This document shows, piece after piece, positions 1-23,621 of a stretch of 27,548 nt of DNA. Origin of the DNA: a virus; the IMG/VR virus record IMGVR_UViG_3300012920_000202, positions 1-27,548 of that record; one strand, given 5' to 3'. A program made the position numbers and the translations under genes. Each line of letters opens with the position of its first letter. Within the stretch, counting starts at the first letter, position 1. A model generated the notes under the pieces. It worked only from the letters and a program-made list of their open reading frames with translations, ran no database searches and was not told the origin of the DNA.

Positions 1-555
1 AGAAACGTAGTCACCTGTCCCGTCAAAAGCATAAGAGCCTGATACATCAAAGACTAGTGTGAAAGATGAGGTAGCTGCAGCTGACTGATTGTTAGGATCA
101 CTGACAGTAAAGGTTAAACTAAAACTTCCAGAGTGAGTTGTATTCGTTGAAGGAGTTATTGTAAATACGTTTGTATTTGCTCCGGTTCCTTGAACAACTG
201 TAGCTATATTCCCTAAAGCTCCTGCCGTTACCGCATAAGAGTATGTTATCGCCTCACCTTCAGGTTCTGTTGCCGCTACAGTGATAACAGTTGGAGTACC
301 ATCATTGGCTAAACTATAACTCGAAACAACGCCACCAGTAATTGTTGGATTTGCATTGGTAACTTCTGCGACTAAGTACCAACCAGTACTGTTCCATACA
401 TACAACTTGTTTATGTCTGATACAAATGCAAGGTCGCCTGCAGTGTTTCCAGTTAGTGGTCTATCTCCAGAAGTAGAATATTGTTTCGCTCCTCCGGTTC
501 CGCCGCCTTCGCCACTTTGAAATTTTCCTAATATTCTTCCTCTTGTAGCTACCAT
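1..555 (-). CDS. Modular tail-fibre-like protein, N-terminal part (runs off window)
   Basis: This is the first 185 codons of a virion fibre or adhesin; the rest lies beyond position 1. The ATG at 555 follows an AGAGG ribosome site. Residues 1-75 form the head module shared with other fibres here (TGNTAGDLAFVSDINKLYVW, then GWYLVAEVT). Residues ~76-175 form a cadherin/Ig-like module with EPEGEAITYSYAV and a SFSLTFTVSD strand. The last visible residues (YAFDGTGDYVS) look like the start of a LamG/concanavalin-like domain. The arrangement copies the start of the 1206-residue fibre at 10144-13764, so this is probably a second LamG fibre. Role in host or glycan binding is inferred from domain type. 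Confidence 0.8.
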   Translation of the reverse strand, partial: MVATRGRILGKFQSGEGGGTGGAKQYSTSGDRPLTGNTAGDLAFVSDINKLYVWNSTGWYLVAEVTNANPTITGGVVSSYSLANDGTPTVITVAATEPEGEAITYSYAVTAGALGNIATVVQGTGANTNVFTITPSTNTTHSGSFSLTFTVSDPNNQSAAATSSFTLVFDVSGSYAFDGTGDYVS

Positions 556-13764: not shown

Positions 13765-13774
13765 GTTTAAACCT

Positions 13775-14002
13775 TTAAGTTACATTTGAAACTTGATACC
13801 AACCGGTACCATTCCATATTAAAAATTTATTCAGTGATGTTATAAGCGCCATTCTACCAGTATGATTTCCAGTTAGAGGAAGATCTGAAGTGTTCGCTAC
13901 CGTTAGGCTATTGTCTGTTTCAAGATTTTCAAACATTCCAACTTCCAGTGTTCCATCACCTTGTAGTGCTTTAGCAAACTCAAACGAACGACTTATAGGC
14001 AT
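13775..14002 (-). CDS. Stand-alone fibre head-module ORF (75 aa)
   Basis: This ORF contains only the N-terminal head module of the fibre family: SRSFEFAKAL near the start, then DLPLTGNHTGRMALITSLNK, FLIWNGTGWYQVSNVT and a stop. The stop falls exactly at the module end that in the neighbouring fibres continues into the cadherin-like module (NVTNTTPNI at 10144-13764, EVTNANPTI at 1-555). The next fibre starts 10 nt later after an AAAGG site. It could be a truncated duplicate, or a functional cap or adaptor protein. Its start overlaps the EF-hand gene stop by one base (TAATG). Confidence 0.78.
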   Translation of the reverse strand: MPISRSFEFAKALQGDGTLEVGMFENLETDNSLTVANTSDLPLTGNHTGRMALITSLNKFLIWNGTGWYQVSNVT

Positions 14003-14384: not shown

Positions 14385-15752
14385 TTAGCCTGTTTCTGTA
14401 TCACTCATACCACGGCCAGAACCGCTAACATCAATCGTGTAATTCGTATCTGAAACTTTATACAAATGTCCGTATGTTGCACCGTTGTCTGCATATGTCC
14501 AATACTTTGTACCATCTGCTGTTAAAGCTGCAGTTGAAGAGTTATTACCCCATGTGTAAGAATTCCAAGTACTATTTCCTACAGCAAGGCCTCTACCAAT
14601 CCAATTTGATCCAACCCAACCTGAATATGAACCTAACCTACTACTAATGTTTGCAAATGTTACAGCAAACATTGTAAGATTTTCATCATTACCGTTACTG
14701 TTGTCGTAGTTCATAGCCAACTGTTTATTATTAAAATCAAAGAGAACGTTTCTAGCCATACCGCCTCTTTCTCTTCTGATAGCTGCTGAATAGTTAGTTC
14801 CTGAACTGTTCTCTCTTTTTACGGTACAGTTAGCAAGAGCTTTTGCTGCTTTAAAACCTGCTGGTGGTTCGGCACCTTGCCATATAGCCCAGTCTCTTCC
14901 GGAAGAACCATCAAGAGTAATATGTACTTCATGTGGCTTAGAAGTGTTTCCTACTATAGCAAAGGCTCTGTCCCACCAGATGTCCCAACCGTACGCTTCC
15001 GATTGTCCAGTGAGAGTGTATGTACCGGGTGCTAAGTGAAGAACATCGTATCTGCTGTTTGAAATTTCACCAACACTCGCCTGAATATAAGTCTCAAGGT
15101 CAGCGTGATCTGTTGCATTGAGCGAATGAATAACACAAGTACCTCCAGCAGCTTCAATGGCTGCTTTGTATTTAGTGTGAAAATCGTTAGTGTATGCTAC
15201 ACCTAGATCTGCGCTCGCTGTTGTTGATATAGCACCATCATTTGCCAGAATCCTATACGTGTAGTCTCCCAAATTTCCAGATCCTGAAGAATCTGCTAGA
15301 AACCTAAACGTTCCTGATGATGGACTAGAATGAATGATATTTTTAATTCCTGGAGGGTAGGTTCCTCCGCCTTCCTTATAATGAACTGTAGCTGAGCTAT
15401 CTACCTTAAGCGCATCCCAACTATATGTAATTGGAAATCCTTCTGGATCTCCAGCAAGTACACTTATAGAAGCTGATTCTTCGCTTCCTAAACTAACTGT
15501 AGTAGGTAAAACTTTAAAAAACGGAGCGGCGTTGTTTCCTGTTTGAATTCTATCCCATTCAGTACCATCGTATAAGAATGCAGATTTTGTAGCTGTTGCA
15601 AACTTGAGATCACCGGCATTACCAGCACCTAATGCGGCTTCATTAGCCACTGGCTCAACTCCACCACCTACTTCTTCAGGAACTGCTTGAGTTGCTTTTG
15701 CTAGAACTCCAGCCGAACCAAATGCTTTTGCTATTTTTCTAGATCTACTCAT
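14385..15752 (-). CDS. Modular fibre-like protein with beta-helix/pectate-lyase-like distal domain
   Basis: 455 residues. The head module runs to ~residue 75 (GDLKFATATKSAFLYDGTEW, then DRIQTGN). A cadherin-like module follows (DPEGFPITYSWD, then DYTYRILANDG). The distal half starts near FHTKYKAAIEAAGGTCVIHS and has a LAPGTYTLTG strand and repeated short strands with Asn and Gly, as in right-handed beta-helix (pectin-lyase-like) phage fibres. No catalytic residues can be assigned. The ATG at 15752 has an AAGGAG site and lies 22 nt from a late promoter, so strong late expression of a virion component is expected. Confidence 0.78.
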   Translation of the reverse strand: MSRSRKIAKAFGSAGVLAKATQAVPEEVGGGVEPVANEAALGAGNAGDLKFATATKSAFLYDGTEWDRIQTGNNAAPFFKVLPTTVSLGSEESASISVLAGDPEGFPITYSWDALKVDSSATVHYKEGGGTYPPGIKNIIHSSPSSGTFRFLADSSGSGNLGDYTYRILANDGAISTTASADLGVAYTNDFHTKYKAAIEAAGGTCVIHSLNATDHADLETYIQASVGEISNSRYDVLHLAPGTYTLTGQSEAYGWDIWWDRAFAIVGNTSKPHEVHITLDGSSGRDWAIWQGAEPPAGFKAAKALANCTVKRENSSGTNYSAAIRRERGGMARNVLFDFNNKQLAMNYDNSNGNDENLTMFAVTFANISSRLGSYSGWVGSNWIGRGLAVGNSTWNSYTWGNNSSTAALTADGTKYWTYADNGATYGHLYKVSDTNYTIDVSGSGRGMSDTETG

Positions 15753-15768: not shown

Positions 15769-16110
15769 TTATCTATTTATATCAGTAATCTCTTCTTTCC
15801 ACATTTCTGGTTTAAGCATTTCACCTGCCAGCCATATGAAAATTAGCGTATAATATAATATAACTACTGCTACCGGAGCAACTATAAAACTTACCCATAT
15901 AGGTTTTGTTTTTAGCCAGCGTATTAGTTTCGTAATTTTATTTTTTAGTCCACCTATTACATAAGCGCCGAGTAGGTATCTCACTAAACGCATCACTATT
16001 AATATAGGACTAGTTATAACTTCCCAAAACAATAGTATTGCATCCATTACTAGATCAACAACACGGTCTACTGTGAGCCACTCTCGCCAGTTGCGGAGCT
16101 TTTCCAGCAT
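15769..16110 (-). CDS. Small membrane protein (113 aa)
   Basis: Two hydrophobic segments, roughly residues 20-52 (VDLVMDAILLFWEVITSPIL and on) and 70-95 (IWVSFIVAPVAVVILYYTLI), are separated by a basic loop (KNKITKLIRWLKTK). The C-terminus is acidic. No family recognised. It is the last of three consecutive small membrane-type genes after the spanin pair; its stop overlaps the late promoter of the next gene. A lysis or envelope role fits the context but is not shown. Confidence 0.7.
   Translation of the reverse strand: MLEKLRNWREWLTVDRVVDLVMDAILLFWEVITSPILIVMRLVRYLLGAYVIGGLKNKITKLIRWLKTKPIWVSFIVAPVAVVILYYTLIFIWLAGEMLKPEMWKEEITDINR
15774..15781 (-). promoter_or_regulatory. T4-type late promoter (TATAAATA)
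   Basis: An exact TATAAATA on the minus strand, 22 nt upstream of the ATG of the beta-helix-like fibre at 15752. It matches the -10-only late promoter recognised by T4 gp55-type sigma factors and leaves room for an AAGGAG site in the leader. Confidence 0.75.
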
Positions 16111-16394: not shown

Positions 16395-16630
16395 TATTCT
16401 TTTAACACACCCATCTTCTTCAACGCTTCAGTCTCTTGAGCCGGCTTCTTTAATACTTCTTTGCACTTATCACTAGCGTATGTGGTAAACCAACGAGGTG
16501 CGAATGCATGTAGGAAGCAAGCGTAAGCCGCTTTCTCTAACTGCCAAGACACCCACAACGCGTGTTTAAAGTGTTGCCAACGTGACATGTTTACTTCTTC
16601 TAAGTGTAATTTGCATTTTTTACTAAACAT
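16394..16630 (-). CDS. DUF6356-like small protein (78 aa)
   Basis: The centre (FKHALWVSWQLEKAAYACFL followed by HAFAPRWFTTYASD) resembles, from memory, the DUF6356 family, which has an FA..S..L..A....HAF.P..F.T.AS pattern and is found in phages and alphaproteobacteria. The hydrophobic stretch could be an amphipathic or membrane helix. The ATG at 16630 overlaps the preceding stop (TAATG), which favours it; an internal ATG (M15, SRWQHFKH) is an alternative start. Function unknown. Confidence 0.65.
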   Translation of the reverse strand: MFSKKCKLHLEEVNMSRWQHFKHALWVSWQLEKAAYACFLHAFAPRWFTTYASDKCKEVLKKPAQETEALKKMGVLKE

Positions 16631-17025
16631 TAGTCTAAATCTTCTTCTATAATTTCGTTAGGTGATACTGATTTTTCGTAGTATAGTATTACATTATTTT
16701 GTTGATCAATAAATCTTTTTATCTCTTCCATGTTAAGTGCTAGAGCTTGAAAACTCTGCGCTGTCATAGCGTATAAAACAAACTCACCTTGAGTAGTCTT
16801 GATTTTTTCAATAACTTCTTCCAAGTTGGCTTCGGTTACGACTACAATATCTGCGTCTTTCATCTCAACAGGTGAGGGTCTAGAAACAATCTGTATAGTA
16901 GGAGCCTCAATCTTTGGAGTATCTACAACAGTTGGTACTGTAACTATTTCCTTAATCGGAGTTCGACTGCATGCACTGACCAGTAGCGCAGCCGATATCA
17001 CCGAAAAACTTATCAACTTCTTCAT
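16630..17025 (-). CDS. Outer-membrane lipoprotein, candidate o-spanin (Rz1-like)
   Basis: 131 residues beginning with a lipoprotein signal peptide: MKKLISFSVISAALLVSAC, lipobox VSAC with acylated C19. A proline- and threonine-rich segment follows (PIKEIVTVPTVVDTPKIEAP). The start lies inside the 3' end of the coiled-coil membrane gene in another frame (74-nt overlap, 16952-17025), the hallmark arrangement of overlapping Rz/Rz1 spanin genes. It is longer than classic Rz1 and carries an added C-terminal domain (ALNMEEIKRFIDQQNNVILY). A GAGG site precedes the ATG. Spanins fuse inner and outer membranes at the end of lysis; that role is inferred from layout. Confidence 0.75.
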   Translation of the reverse strand: MKKLISFSVISAALLVSACSRTPIKEIVTVPTVVDTPKIEAPTIQIVSRPSPVEMKDADIVVVTEANLEEVIEKIKTTQGEFVLYAMTAQSFQALALNMEEIKRFIDQQNNVILYYEKSVSPNEIIEEDLD

Positions 17026-17383
17026 TTATTTTTTCCTCAGTAGCCTTAGGATCGGCAAGACTATTTTTAATTATATCTGTGTTAGCCAGTAGTTTTGCTA
17101 TGGCTTGATTCTTTTCAATAGATTGTTTGAGATTTGAGCTAAGTTCGTCGTTAAGCTCTTGTTGCTTCTTTAATTCAGCCTTAAAGTTTTCAATCTCTTC
17201 AGTTACTTTAAGTCTGTACTGTTTAAATTCTTCTACAGTTTGTTTCTGTGCAGTTTCTAACTTAGCGTTATTAGCAGTTAGTACTCCAATTCTTGTTTGA
17301 GTGTCGACATAATACTTGTAGCCGAACCAACCGAATCCACCAATAATTCCTACTATAATAATTGTTAAATATAACCTAGCCAT
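16952..17383 (-). CDS. Inner-membrane coiled-coil protein, candidate i-spanin (Rz-like)
   Basis: 143 residues: an N-terminal anchor at residues 4-22 (LYLTIIIVGIIGGFGWFGY), then a long heptad-rich periplasmic helix (~33-105, with KLETAQKQTVEEFKQYRLKV and ELKKQQELNDELSSNLKQSI). The C-terminal end has two Cys (GCATGQC) that may form a dimer or intramolecular disulfide. This is the topology of an Rz-type i-spanin, and the lipoprotein gene begins inside its 3' end in another frame. The shared region encodes the Cys-containing tail. Confidence 0.78.
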   Translation of the reverse strand: MARLYLTIIIVGIIGGFGWFGYKYYVDTQTRIGVLTANNAKLETAQKQTVEEFKQYRLKVTEEIENFKAELKKQQELNDELSSNLKQSIEKNQAIAKLLANTDIIKNSLADPKATEEKINEEVDKFFGDIGCATGQCMQSNSD

Positions 17384-20514: not shown

Positions 20515-20522
20515 TATTTATA
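20515..20522 (-). promoter_or_regulatory. T4-type late promoter (TATAAATA)
   Basis: An exact TATAAATA on the minus strand in the 39-nt gap between the glycine-rich fibre and the coiled-coil gene, 19-31 nt before the latter's possible starts. It is the best-placed example here, because it lies outside any coding sequence. Confidence 0.78.
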
Positions 20523-20535
20523 AGATTTTTATTCT

Positions 20536-22173
20536 CTATGCTACCGGAATTATTGCAAATCTACCCGGATAAGATCTTCTCCAGCCGCCAATATCTGTTT
20601 CGTCATCGCCGCCTCCAGTATATGGATTCGCTGTTGTTGAGCCGTGATCAAAGTGTCCAACACCAGCATTATCACCCCATTCTGGTTCATCTCTTCCTGG
20701 AGAAGGTCCATCAACATTATAAGCAAGTGCCGTATTCATTCCACTGTTTGTTATACTAGCATCTGACTTAATATATCCAGATCCACCGCCGCCTGGACCA
20801 CCTGCATAGTTATTTCTATTTCCTGTACCACCACCATAGTAGCCACCACCTCCGCCGCCAGGAGTATGAACGCTTGTTCGGCCGCGACTTCCACCTAGTA
20901 ATTTACCACCTGCTGTTCCTGCTCCATAGCCGCCACCACTGGTTGCTCCTCCAGCAGACTGTGTACCGCCGTAACCACCTAAGGTAGATGATGCTGCATA
21001 ACCTCTTGTTCCTTCAAGACCACCGGCGGATCCACCGCCACCGACTTGACCAAATCCACCGCCGCCTCCTCCGGCGATGAGTAATGCTGCTGCATGTGCG
21101 TCGTTGACATTAGCAAATTCTTTTCCTAGGAATATACCAGTGAGTCCACCACCGGATCCACGACCGTGTTGCATTCCACCATTGTTTGCTCTACCTGCGT
21201 TACCGCCTCCTCCAAATCCACCCGGAGGACCATGACTGTTTCCATTTCCAGTACCGAACGCGCCACCTTGTCCTACAATAATAGTATAATACTGTCCAGC
21301 TGTAAAATCCATTCTTGCGTATGTGTATCCACCAAAGCCACTGTAAGTGTGTCCTCCATCATAATCATCACCAGCACCAACTACACCATCTGATGCTGTT
21401 GATCCTGCAGCTCCCCACATCTTTAAGTCAGCTGTAAAATTTGATTTAGGTAATAACCAGTACTCTCCAAACTTGTTTAATATCATTGTCTGTCCAACAT
21501 CAATAAGTTCATCACCAATACCTGATTGTCCATCACCACCGTAATTATAGTTACTGCCATAGGTAGTTCCCCAGAATCCAGGTGCAGCTGCACCCTTCTT
21601 GAATATACTAAACTTAGAGTAAGTCATACCAATTATAGTTGAGGCTGTTGTGACACGAGCACCGTCTGAAGCGAGTATTCTAAAACTTACGGTATCATTT
21701 GCATTACTCTCACCGCTCATAATATTTGGTGAAAGTCTAAATGTTCCTGCGCTTGTTTGTTGCACACTGTCTATTACATTGTTTGGTGATGGATGTTCAT
21801 CAAAATCATAAACAATAGGAAAACCATCAGGATCTACTGCGGTCACACTAAGAGTAATTCTTTGAGAATCTAAAGTTGCTAGGTTTGTGTCAAAACTATG
21901 GCTCTGATTTAAAATACGTGGTTTTGCAACAACACTACCTCCACTGTCCCACTGAGGAGGACCGTCAGTTCCTGACAGCACTCTGTCCCAACCGGTTCCG
22001 TTGTAGAGATACAAACTCTTTTGACCAGCAACAAACTTTTGATCAGCCTGATCACCAGTTCCTAGACCAGTCGTGTCAGAAGTTACTTCTTTCTTTTGGA
22101 CTCCTTCAACGTTGTCCGCAGAAAGCGTAGTATTTCCACCTAGTAGATTTGATAAGTTTCTTCCGTTACTCAT
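20536..22173 (-). CDS. Modular fibre-like protein with glycine-rich adhesin domain
   Basis: 545 residues. The head module begins MSNGRNLSNLLGG and includes DQKFVAGQKSLYLYNGTGWD, followed by a cadherin-like module (DPDGFPIVYDFD, then DTVSFRILASDG). The distal domain (~residues 200-520) opens with a GEYWLLPKSNFTADLKMWGA strand pair typical of glycine-rich (Gly_rich/ALK-like) domains. It continues with many Gly runs such as LLIAGGGGGGFGQVGGGG and a YYGGG stretch. Glycine-rich tips are known in T4-like receptor-binding adhesins, where polyglycine II helices display variable loops; a similar role is inferred. Translation is coupled to the MKKF protein by an 8-nt overlap. Confidence 0.82.
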   Translation of the reverse strand: MSNGRNLSNLLGGNTTLSADNVEGVQKKEVTSDTTGLGTGDQADQKFVAGQKSLYLYNGTGWDRVLSGTDGPPQWDSGGSVVAKPRILNQSHSFDTNLATLDSQRITLSVTAVDPDGFPIVYDFDEHPSPNNVIDSVQQTSAGTFRLSPNIMSGESNANDTVSFRILASDGARVTTASTIIGMTYSKFSIFKKGAAAPGFWGTTYGSNYNYGGDGQSGIGDELIDVGQTMILNKFGEYWLLPKSNFTADLKMWGAAGSTASDGVVGAGDDYDGGHTYSGFGGYTYARMDFTAGQYYTIIVGQGGAFGTGNGNSHGPPGGFGGGGNAGRANNGGMQHGRGSGGGLTGIFLGKEFANVNDAHAAALLIAGGGGGGFGQVGGGGSAGGLEGTRGYAASSTLGGYGGTQSAGGATSGGGYGAGTAGGKLLGGSRGRTSVHTPGGGGGGYYGGGTGNRNNYAGGPGGGGSGYIKSDASITNSGMNTALAYNVDGPSPGRDEPEWGDNAGVGHFDHGSTTANPYTGGGDDETDIGGWRRSYPGRFAIIPVA

Positions 22174-22403: not shown

Positions 22404-23621
22404 CTATACTGAAGTGAATCCGGGTGGGGGTGCATAAGTCAAATCTCCAGCTCTCATAGTGTAAGCATTCCAACCATCTGCACCAGAAGATGCTCCACCC
22501 ATATACATTCTTGGTCGATCATCTGAGCCTCCTTCTAGTGTACCACTAATTTGTCCACCAGCGAGTGGGTTGTAAGTAGCATGCCAACCACCTCCAACAC
22601 CGCCACCATTAGTACCGTTTCCAAACCAAACCGCTCTAGTGTCAGTATCGTATGCAACCATTATGATCTCTCCGTTACCCCAAGCTCCTCCTGGAATTGT
22701 ATACGTGGCGTTGCCAAAGTTGCTACCTTTAAATTCATCACCACTATAGTGATAGTTTCCTACTACATTAGAATTCTCATAGTTACCTACTAATTCATTT
22801 TCACCGTTTGTAGTAGCACCGGCGTCATCAATTGTTTTTTGAGCCATAAGGCCGAACTGCATGTAAGGTTCTAAGTTTTGACATCTAAACTCAAAGTATC
22901 TCCTACCTAACGGTAGTGGAGAACTTAAAGCAATGCCAGCATATTGATTTAACTGACTTATTCCACCTGATGTAGTACCACTCAACATATTGGTAAAATC
23001 CGTATCACCTGTAGTGACAGTAGGAGTAGCTCCTGCTGCTGCCCAACCAGAACCAGAATTTACTAGTCCGAAAGTAATAGGAGTTGAGAACTGCATAATA
23101 AAGTTTTTAGTAGAAGTGACTAGTTTTGATCCATCAGATCCTATGTAACGTACTTTATAAGCGTCTTTAGTAGAATTACCGCTACCGTCCGATTCAACTG
23201 TTCGAGTTAAAAACTGGTAAGTCGCTGTTCCATCTCCGGCAGTAGTTATTCGAGTTGGATGAGCTAGAGGTGGTGGAAGATTTGCCGAATCATTTCTAAA
23301 AAATACTTTGTCGCTATCTCTCATATAAGCTATATCATAAGTAATAGGAAATCCTTCTGGATCTGCAACTCTAAATGTTTGTCTGGCTGAATCTGTTGAA
23401 GTTGCCGCTATTTCTATATCACCAGGATCTGTAATGATAACAGGTGCTTCGTCTTGTCCTCCAGCTATTCTATCCCACTCGTCCCCGTCATACAGATACA
23501 AAGTTTTTCTGTTTGAAACAAACTTCAGTTCTCCTTCTTCTCCTATTACTTGGAGTCCACCAGAGTCTGCTGTGTTCTTAACACCTTTAGTTTTGTATAT
23601 AGCAACTTCTGATAACTTCAT
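22404..23621 (-). CDS. Modular fibre-like protein with SPRY-like distal domain
   Basis: 405 residues. The head module carries GELKFVSNRKTLYLYDGDEW then DRIAGGQDEAP. A cadherin-like module follows (DPEGFPITYDIAYM, then KVRYIGSDGS). The distal domain begins near QYAGIALSSPLPLGRRYFEF and has MQFGLM, IIMVAYDTDTRAVWFGNGTN and PRMYMGGASS, the strand order of a SPRY/B30.2-like sandwich. SPRY folds mediate protein contacts in eukaryotes; in phages they are found in fibre tips, where ligands are unknown. Its ATG directly follows the stop of the repeat fibre (TAAATG), so these two are co-translated. Confidence 0.78.
   Translation of the reverse strand: MKLSEVAIYKTKGVKNTADSGGLQVIGEEGELKFVSNRKTLYLYDGDEWDRIAGGQDEAPVIITDPGDIEIAATSTDSARQTFRVADPEGFPITYDIAYMRDSDKVFFRNDSANLPPPLAHPTRITTAGDGTATYQFLTRTVESDGSGNSTKDAYKVRYIGSDGSKLVTSTKNFIMQFSTPITFGLVNSGSGWAAAGATPTVTTGDTDFTNMLSGTTSGGISQLNQYAGIALSSPLPLGRRYFEFRCQNLEPYMQFGLMAQKTIDDAGATTNGENELVGNYENSNVVGNYHYSGDEFKGSNFGNATYTIPGGAWGNGEIIMVAYDTDTRAVWFGNGTNGGGVGGGWHATYNPLAGGQISGTLEGGSDDRPRMYMGGASSGADGWNAYTMRAGDLTYAPPPGFTSV

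Follow-up and report, generated by a model that had tools for sequence, protein, structure and literature searches.

Why would a phage keep a separate gene for the head of a tail fibre, and place it directly before a gene that encodes a complete fibre with a head of its own? This question is raised by a 75-codon ORF, here called the head-only ORF, in a 27,548-nucleotide stretch of a marine phage (IMGVR_UViG_3300012920_000202) that is referred to below as the window. In the order of transcription on the minus strand, a fibre gene (14385-15752) is followed by a gene for an EF-hand-like/transmembrane (EF-hand/TM) protein, the head-only ORF, a long fibre with Laminin_G_3 domains (the LamG fibre) and a gene that, from its protein sequence, we take to encode a ribonucleotide-reductase-like (RNR-like) protein (Table 1). 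A further contig, L184 (IMGVR_UViG_3300012936_000566), appears to overlap the window and to extend past its start, since its positions 1-1941 encode residues 560-1206 of the LamG fibre with 100% protein identity and its RNR is identical to that of the window.

Table 1. Position and main characteristics of the features discussed in the text
Feature	Position	Strand	Characteristics
Head-only ORF, 75 aa; ATG start, TAA stop	13775..14002	-	Residues 1-~20, anchor helix segment; ~30-75, beta bead (putative trimerisation unit)
Spacer, 10 nt, AGGTTTAAAC	13765..13774	-	Contains the Shine-Dalgarno-like AAGG of the LamG fibre (counting the last A of the stop)
LamG fibre, 1206 aa	10144..13764	-	Head, 1-77; cadherin-like, 78-177 (predicted); Laminin_G_3 domains
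EF-hand-like/transmembrane protein, 123 aa	14002..14373	-	TAA overlaps the head-only ATG (TAATG)
Fibre with divergent head module; opens the proposed late unit	14385..15752	-	
T4-type late-promoter-like motif TATAAATA	15774..15781	-	~21 nt before the start of fibre 14385
Fibre cut by the window end	1..555	-	Its bead is the one most closely related to the head-only bead
Fibre with divergent head module	20536..22173	-	Glycine-rich distal domain
Fibre with weakly similar head module	22404..23621	-	

The head module, its boundary and its predicted fold

To compare the head-only product with the heads of the five fibres of the window, we used Smith-Waterman alignments evaluated against 1000 shuffles. 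The complete ORF could be aligned with residues 1-77 of the LamG fibre (35% identity over 77 columns, z=18.9), and from residue 21 onwards it matched fibre 1-555 almost as strongly (40% over 58 columns, z=18.4). Lower scores were obtained with fibre 20536 (z=5.6, 0/1000 shuffles as high) and fibre 14385 (z=4.5, 2/1000), and the similarity to fibre 22404 was borderline (z=2.8, 25/1000). In addition, the ORF matches the HMM of the module at E about 1e-20.

The last residue of the product, residue 75, pairs with residue 77 of the LamG fibre. In the AlphaFold2 model of residues 1-180 of this fibre, a helix (5-12) and strands reaching residue 75 are followed by a separate domain, and residues 78-177 resemble cadherin repeats (Z about 10). 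Therefore, the initial annotation was correct in describing the product as the N-terminal module of the fibre family ending at the module edge; the complete fibre that it placed 10 nt further on, with the same module, does start there (the spacer is 9 nt in the relatives). The shaft and the distal receptor-binding domains are absent from the product, given that the stop follows residue 75 in all the orthologues.

When the 75 residues were modelled alone with AlphaFold2 (59 aligned heads), a pLDDT of 86 was obtained, with a helix at 5-12 and strands at 32-35, 51-54, 59-63 and 68-73. The helix and the four strands are at matching positions in this model and in that of the LamG head, and the short product is thus a complete unit. 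The top structural match in the PDB was with collagen XV/XVIII trimerisation domains (3n3f, Z 4.9, rmsd 1.6 Å, 46/54 residues), followed by phage spikes, namely Geobacillus virus E2 ORF18 (3-56), CBA120 TSP3 (583-623) and Mtd (5-49); all of them are weak matches (Z <5, Foldseek E 0.24). Searches by sequence gave no meaningful match in the PDB, no real match in Pfam or NCBIfam (YmzC was below the cut-off) and, by tblastn against isolated phages, nothing beyond weak matches of the bead to tail proteins.

The collagen XV/XVIII fold has been described in the N-terminal domain of a Klebsiella phage tailspike, the K1 lyase, as a small beta unit of ~50 residues that is a trimer in crystals (PMC8822698). 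The structures of this lyase were absent from the list of the fold search, and the parallel is taken from that publication. The head-only product differs from the lyase domain in that it is encoded by a separate gene instead of being part of a spike, with a weak structure score and no detectable sequence match between the two. From the model, the head-only product is best read as a putative free-standing trimeric fibre head.

Two positions of the bead set the head-only group apart. R50 and L61 are present in 3/3 distinct orthologues and in 0/56 other heads, in which these positions are mostly D/E and Y (frequent, not invariant). The bead retains L41, P42, G45, G49, W63, G65 and W68, and for this reason we consider the divergence at positions 50 and 61 as a specialisation inside the head family. 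The changes D50R and Y61L could nevertheless reflect a different partner or a role outside the fibre.

Conservation, rarity and origin of the head-only gene

The search of relatives for the same short ORF beside a fibre showed that it is intact in every close relative found, that is, in three IMG/VR contigs (L001, L002 and L003). In all of them it is unframeshifted and directly upstream of the LamG fibre, with the length, the stop and the neighbours as in the window. L001 and L002 are identical across the ORF, so that there are effectively two alleles beyond that of the window. The orthologues present 89-96% identity, and the comparison with the window, which is effectively one divergence (window versus the L001/L003 clade), gave dN 0.049, dS 0.59 and dN/dS about 0.08. 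The 30 differences are distributed 6/4/20 over the codon positions (chi-square p=0.0005), with no indels. This low dN/dS, together with the excess of third-position changes, shows that the short product itself is constrained as a protein. Judging by these substitutions, the head-only ORF is a maintained gene and not debris, on a conservation that amounts to effectively one divergence between the window and the L001/L003 clade. A pseudogene is ruled out by the dN/dS and the intact orthologues.

Near the 3' end of the ORF, around 16 codons (13787-13834) are unchanged among the orthologues, maybe by chance. A special conserved DNA or recombination site was considered here and rejected: the exact 27-mer is confined to the orthologues, and the next-best site in the window, with 3 mismatches, lies inside the bead of fibre 1-555, as expected from coding similarity.

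The initial annotation had considered either a duplication cut off at a module edge or a deliberate short form that occupies the attachment site of the fibre and limits its copy number. The intact orthologues, the purifying selection and the shared stop favor a maintained short form. Recent copying of the LamG fibre followed by truncation is ruled out, because the two heads share 35% identity compared with 89-96% among the orthologues, and because in the module tree, which rests on few columns, the head-only ORF joins the head of fibre 1-555 (94/80), apart from the LamG head. The anchor gives a different affiliation: by similarity to it, the LamG and 14385 fibres rank 2 and 4 of 93, the fibres at the 14385 position in L001 and L003 rank 1 and 3, and the other module fibres of the window rank 66, 76 and 83. 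A bead nearest to fibre 1-555 combined with an anchor nearest to the fibres of its own operon indicates that the head-only ORF is old and possibly mosaic, and no fresh copy; it possibly derives from an old duplication.

To evaluate how frequent such genes are, we carried out a census of the module among the module-bearing viral contigs fetched, which yielded 118 ORFs, complete and distinct, from 73 loci. Most of them (90/118) have the module at the N-terminal end, starting no later than residue 60, as expected of an attachment end. ORFs ending at most 10 residues past the module were found in only 3/118 cases, all belonging to one orthologous group; the shortest of the others have 149 and 171 aa. 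An additional 160 loci, reached via two neighbouring genes, did not contain any further head-only ORF, and as the majority of them have no module fibre they give little information on the loss of the head-only gene. In genome contigs one relative was found, from Pseudoduganella. The 171-aa ORF (L172, 3913-4428) consists of the head and the cadherin-like domain, ends at the edge of the latter and lies 9 nt before a full fibre. It was observed in a single contig and no conserved relative was found for it; its existence suggests that module-edge short forms can arise more than once.

Among known systems, the fibre arrays of marine phages combine the module with a cadherin domain and a variable distal domain, and the same module, in the 118 ORFs of the census, continues onward in all but the head-only group. 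The nearest known parallel to the head-only ORF is gene 18.5 of the SPO1-type Bacillus phages (PHROG_20787), although the relation is distant. It is beside the tailspike genes, and in SP8 and SPO1L1 it is just upstream of a spike-like gene. Its product (SPO1 gp18.5 and the 67-aa protein of SP8) is likewise free-standing and contains little beyond the bead, with a motif of the P-x-x-G-x-x-W-N-G-T-x-W type. The similarity is weak (profile E 0.011 over positions 16-61 of 67; hhalign E 0.0016, probability 16%), and PHROG_20787 does not have the R-S-F-type anchor helix. Its designation as a virion structural protein is annotation only. Cellulophaga phage phi13:2 also has a short bead ORF, gp085 (71 aa), directly upstream of a pectate-lyase tailspike. 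We rejected it as a precedent, since gp084 and gp085 (L199, 31864-33524) are two parts of gp101 of phi19:1: gp085 is the C-terminal piece of this longer virion protein, separated by a frame break in a split gene. In a limited search of the freely available literature, we found no account of a separate gene for the head of a neighbouring fibre.

Expression of the locus

The motif TATAAATA is present 7 times in the window, compared with 2.5 expected; 1/100 shuffles contained as many, and 6/7 copies are on the coding strand. One of these 7 copies is located at 20515-20522 (-). The copy before fibre 14385 is retained in L001 and L003, where it overlaps different reading frames; this retention makes a T4-type late promoter probable, which would serve the unit that contains the head-only ORF.

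Regarding translation, the pairing energy at the head-only start in the relatives is -1.2 kcal/mol versus -5.8 at the LamG fibre, and no Shine-Dalgarno pairing was found at the head-only start in these genomes. In the window, this start has a weak Shine-Dalgarno-like site (-4.6 kcal/mol). The TAATG overlap and the missing pairing in the relatives suggest re-initiation, with the head-only ORF translated by coupling to the preceding EF-hand/TM gene, while the -4.6 kcal/mol site of the window makes this less certain.

The EF-hand/TM protein is very common in marine phages, with hundreds of matches (relatives L101-L180). Its gene adjoins gp51-like/tape-measure genes in Melnitz and HTVC008M, and endolysin, spanin or holin genes in CRP phages and DC31; a holin-like role is possible. 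Upstream of the fibre unit, a lipoprotein ORF (16630-17025) overlaps a TM/coiled-coil ORF (16952-17383), an arrangement that looks like an o-spanin/i-spanin pair.

Possible roles of a fibre head on its own

The reading that we prefer, with a probability of about 0.4, is that the head-only ORF is a genuine late gene for the head of a tail fibre alone, an N-terminal anchor helix plus a small beta bead. The product would share its mRNA with the two full fibres and be translated by ribosomes that re-initiate at the end of the EF-hand/TM gene, and the bead, according to its fold, would form a homotrimer. In the virion, as the similarity of the anchors suggests, this trimeric stub may dock at the fibre site through its anchor helix, without a distal receptor-binding part, and would cap or share the sites otherwise taken by the full fibre. 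Capping or limiting of the fibres is plausible, and is our first choice. A more specific form of this idea, which we hold more doubtful, is a dedicated "blank" fibre: an armless trimeric head, coexpressed from one late mRNA, would compete for the docking sites in such a way that the blank-to-fibre ratio sets the valency, and the 171-aa form of L172 would be a longer blank.

Just as doubtful is an adaptor or assembly partner, in which the trimeric head acts as a base or scaffold for the LamG fibre or nucleates its trimerisation. The constant neighbourhood fits with this, as in 4/4 genomes showing both genes the head-only ORF immediately precedes the same LamG fibre; the conserved R50 and L61 are consistent with an interface altered so as to prevent mixed trimers, and SPO1-type phages place their free-standing 67-aa bead gene between or before tailspike genes. 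However, no extra binding surface is recognisable within the 75 aa, and the LamG fibre, with a complete anchor and head of its own, has no need of an adaptor on present evidence.

Somewhat less likely again, in our view, the product uses a borrowed head fold as a structural knob at another site of the virion or for an unrelated function in the cell, such as regulation in the lysis region. The changes at positions 50 and 61 would agree with such a function, as would the proximity of the EF-hand/TM gene, a neighbour of lysis genes in several phages, and of the upstream genes that we read as spanin-like. Against it, the product retains a fibre-type anchor helix like that of the fibres of its own operon. 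It is very improbable, and largely refuted, that the ORF is what remains of an old, decaying fibre gene that lost the part following the head by recombination and survived by chance. Fibre arrays are in general prone to recombination and L172 holds the second module-edge short form, in one contig only; nonetheless, decay is at odds with the dN/dS of about 0.08, the third-position excess, and the constant length and stop without indels in the relatives. Finally, a programmed read-through of the TAA, giving a two-headed fibre in which the head-only module precedes the LamG fibre in tandem, deserves almost no credence. In its favor, the frame past the TAA is open into the fibre in L001-L003 with their 9-nt spacer, but the 10-nt spacer of the window shifts the fibre out of frame, and an ATG and a Shine-Dalgarno-like site are present at the start of the LamG fibre itself.

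Phages are known to change the specificity of their fibres through exchange of the distal parts. A conserved gene limited to the fibre base would point to a control of the number of fibres mounted, or to a separate base piece. Should the product be only a minor structural stub, it would still be a clear case of one fibre module kept as its own gene. If it is a trimeric stub on the tail, it could alter the number of receptor-binding fibres per particle. With 75 aa that are predicted to fold alone, the head-only product offers a small, testable handle on the question of how the many fibre types of a large array are accommodated at few docking sites in marine phages.
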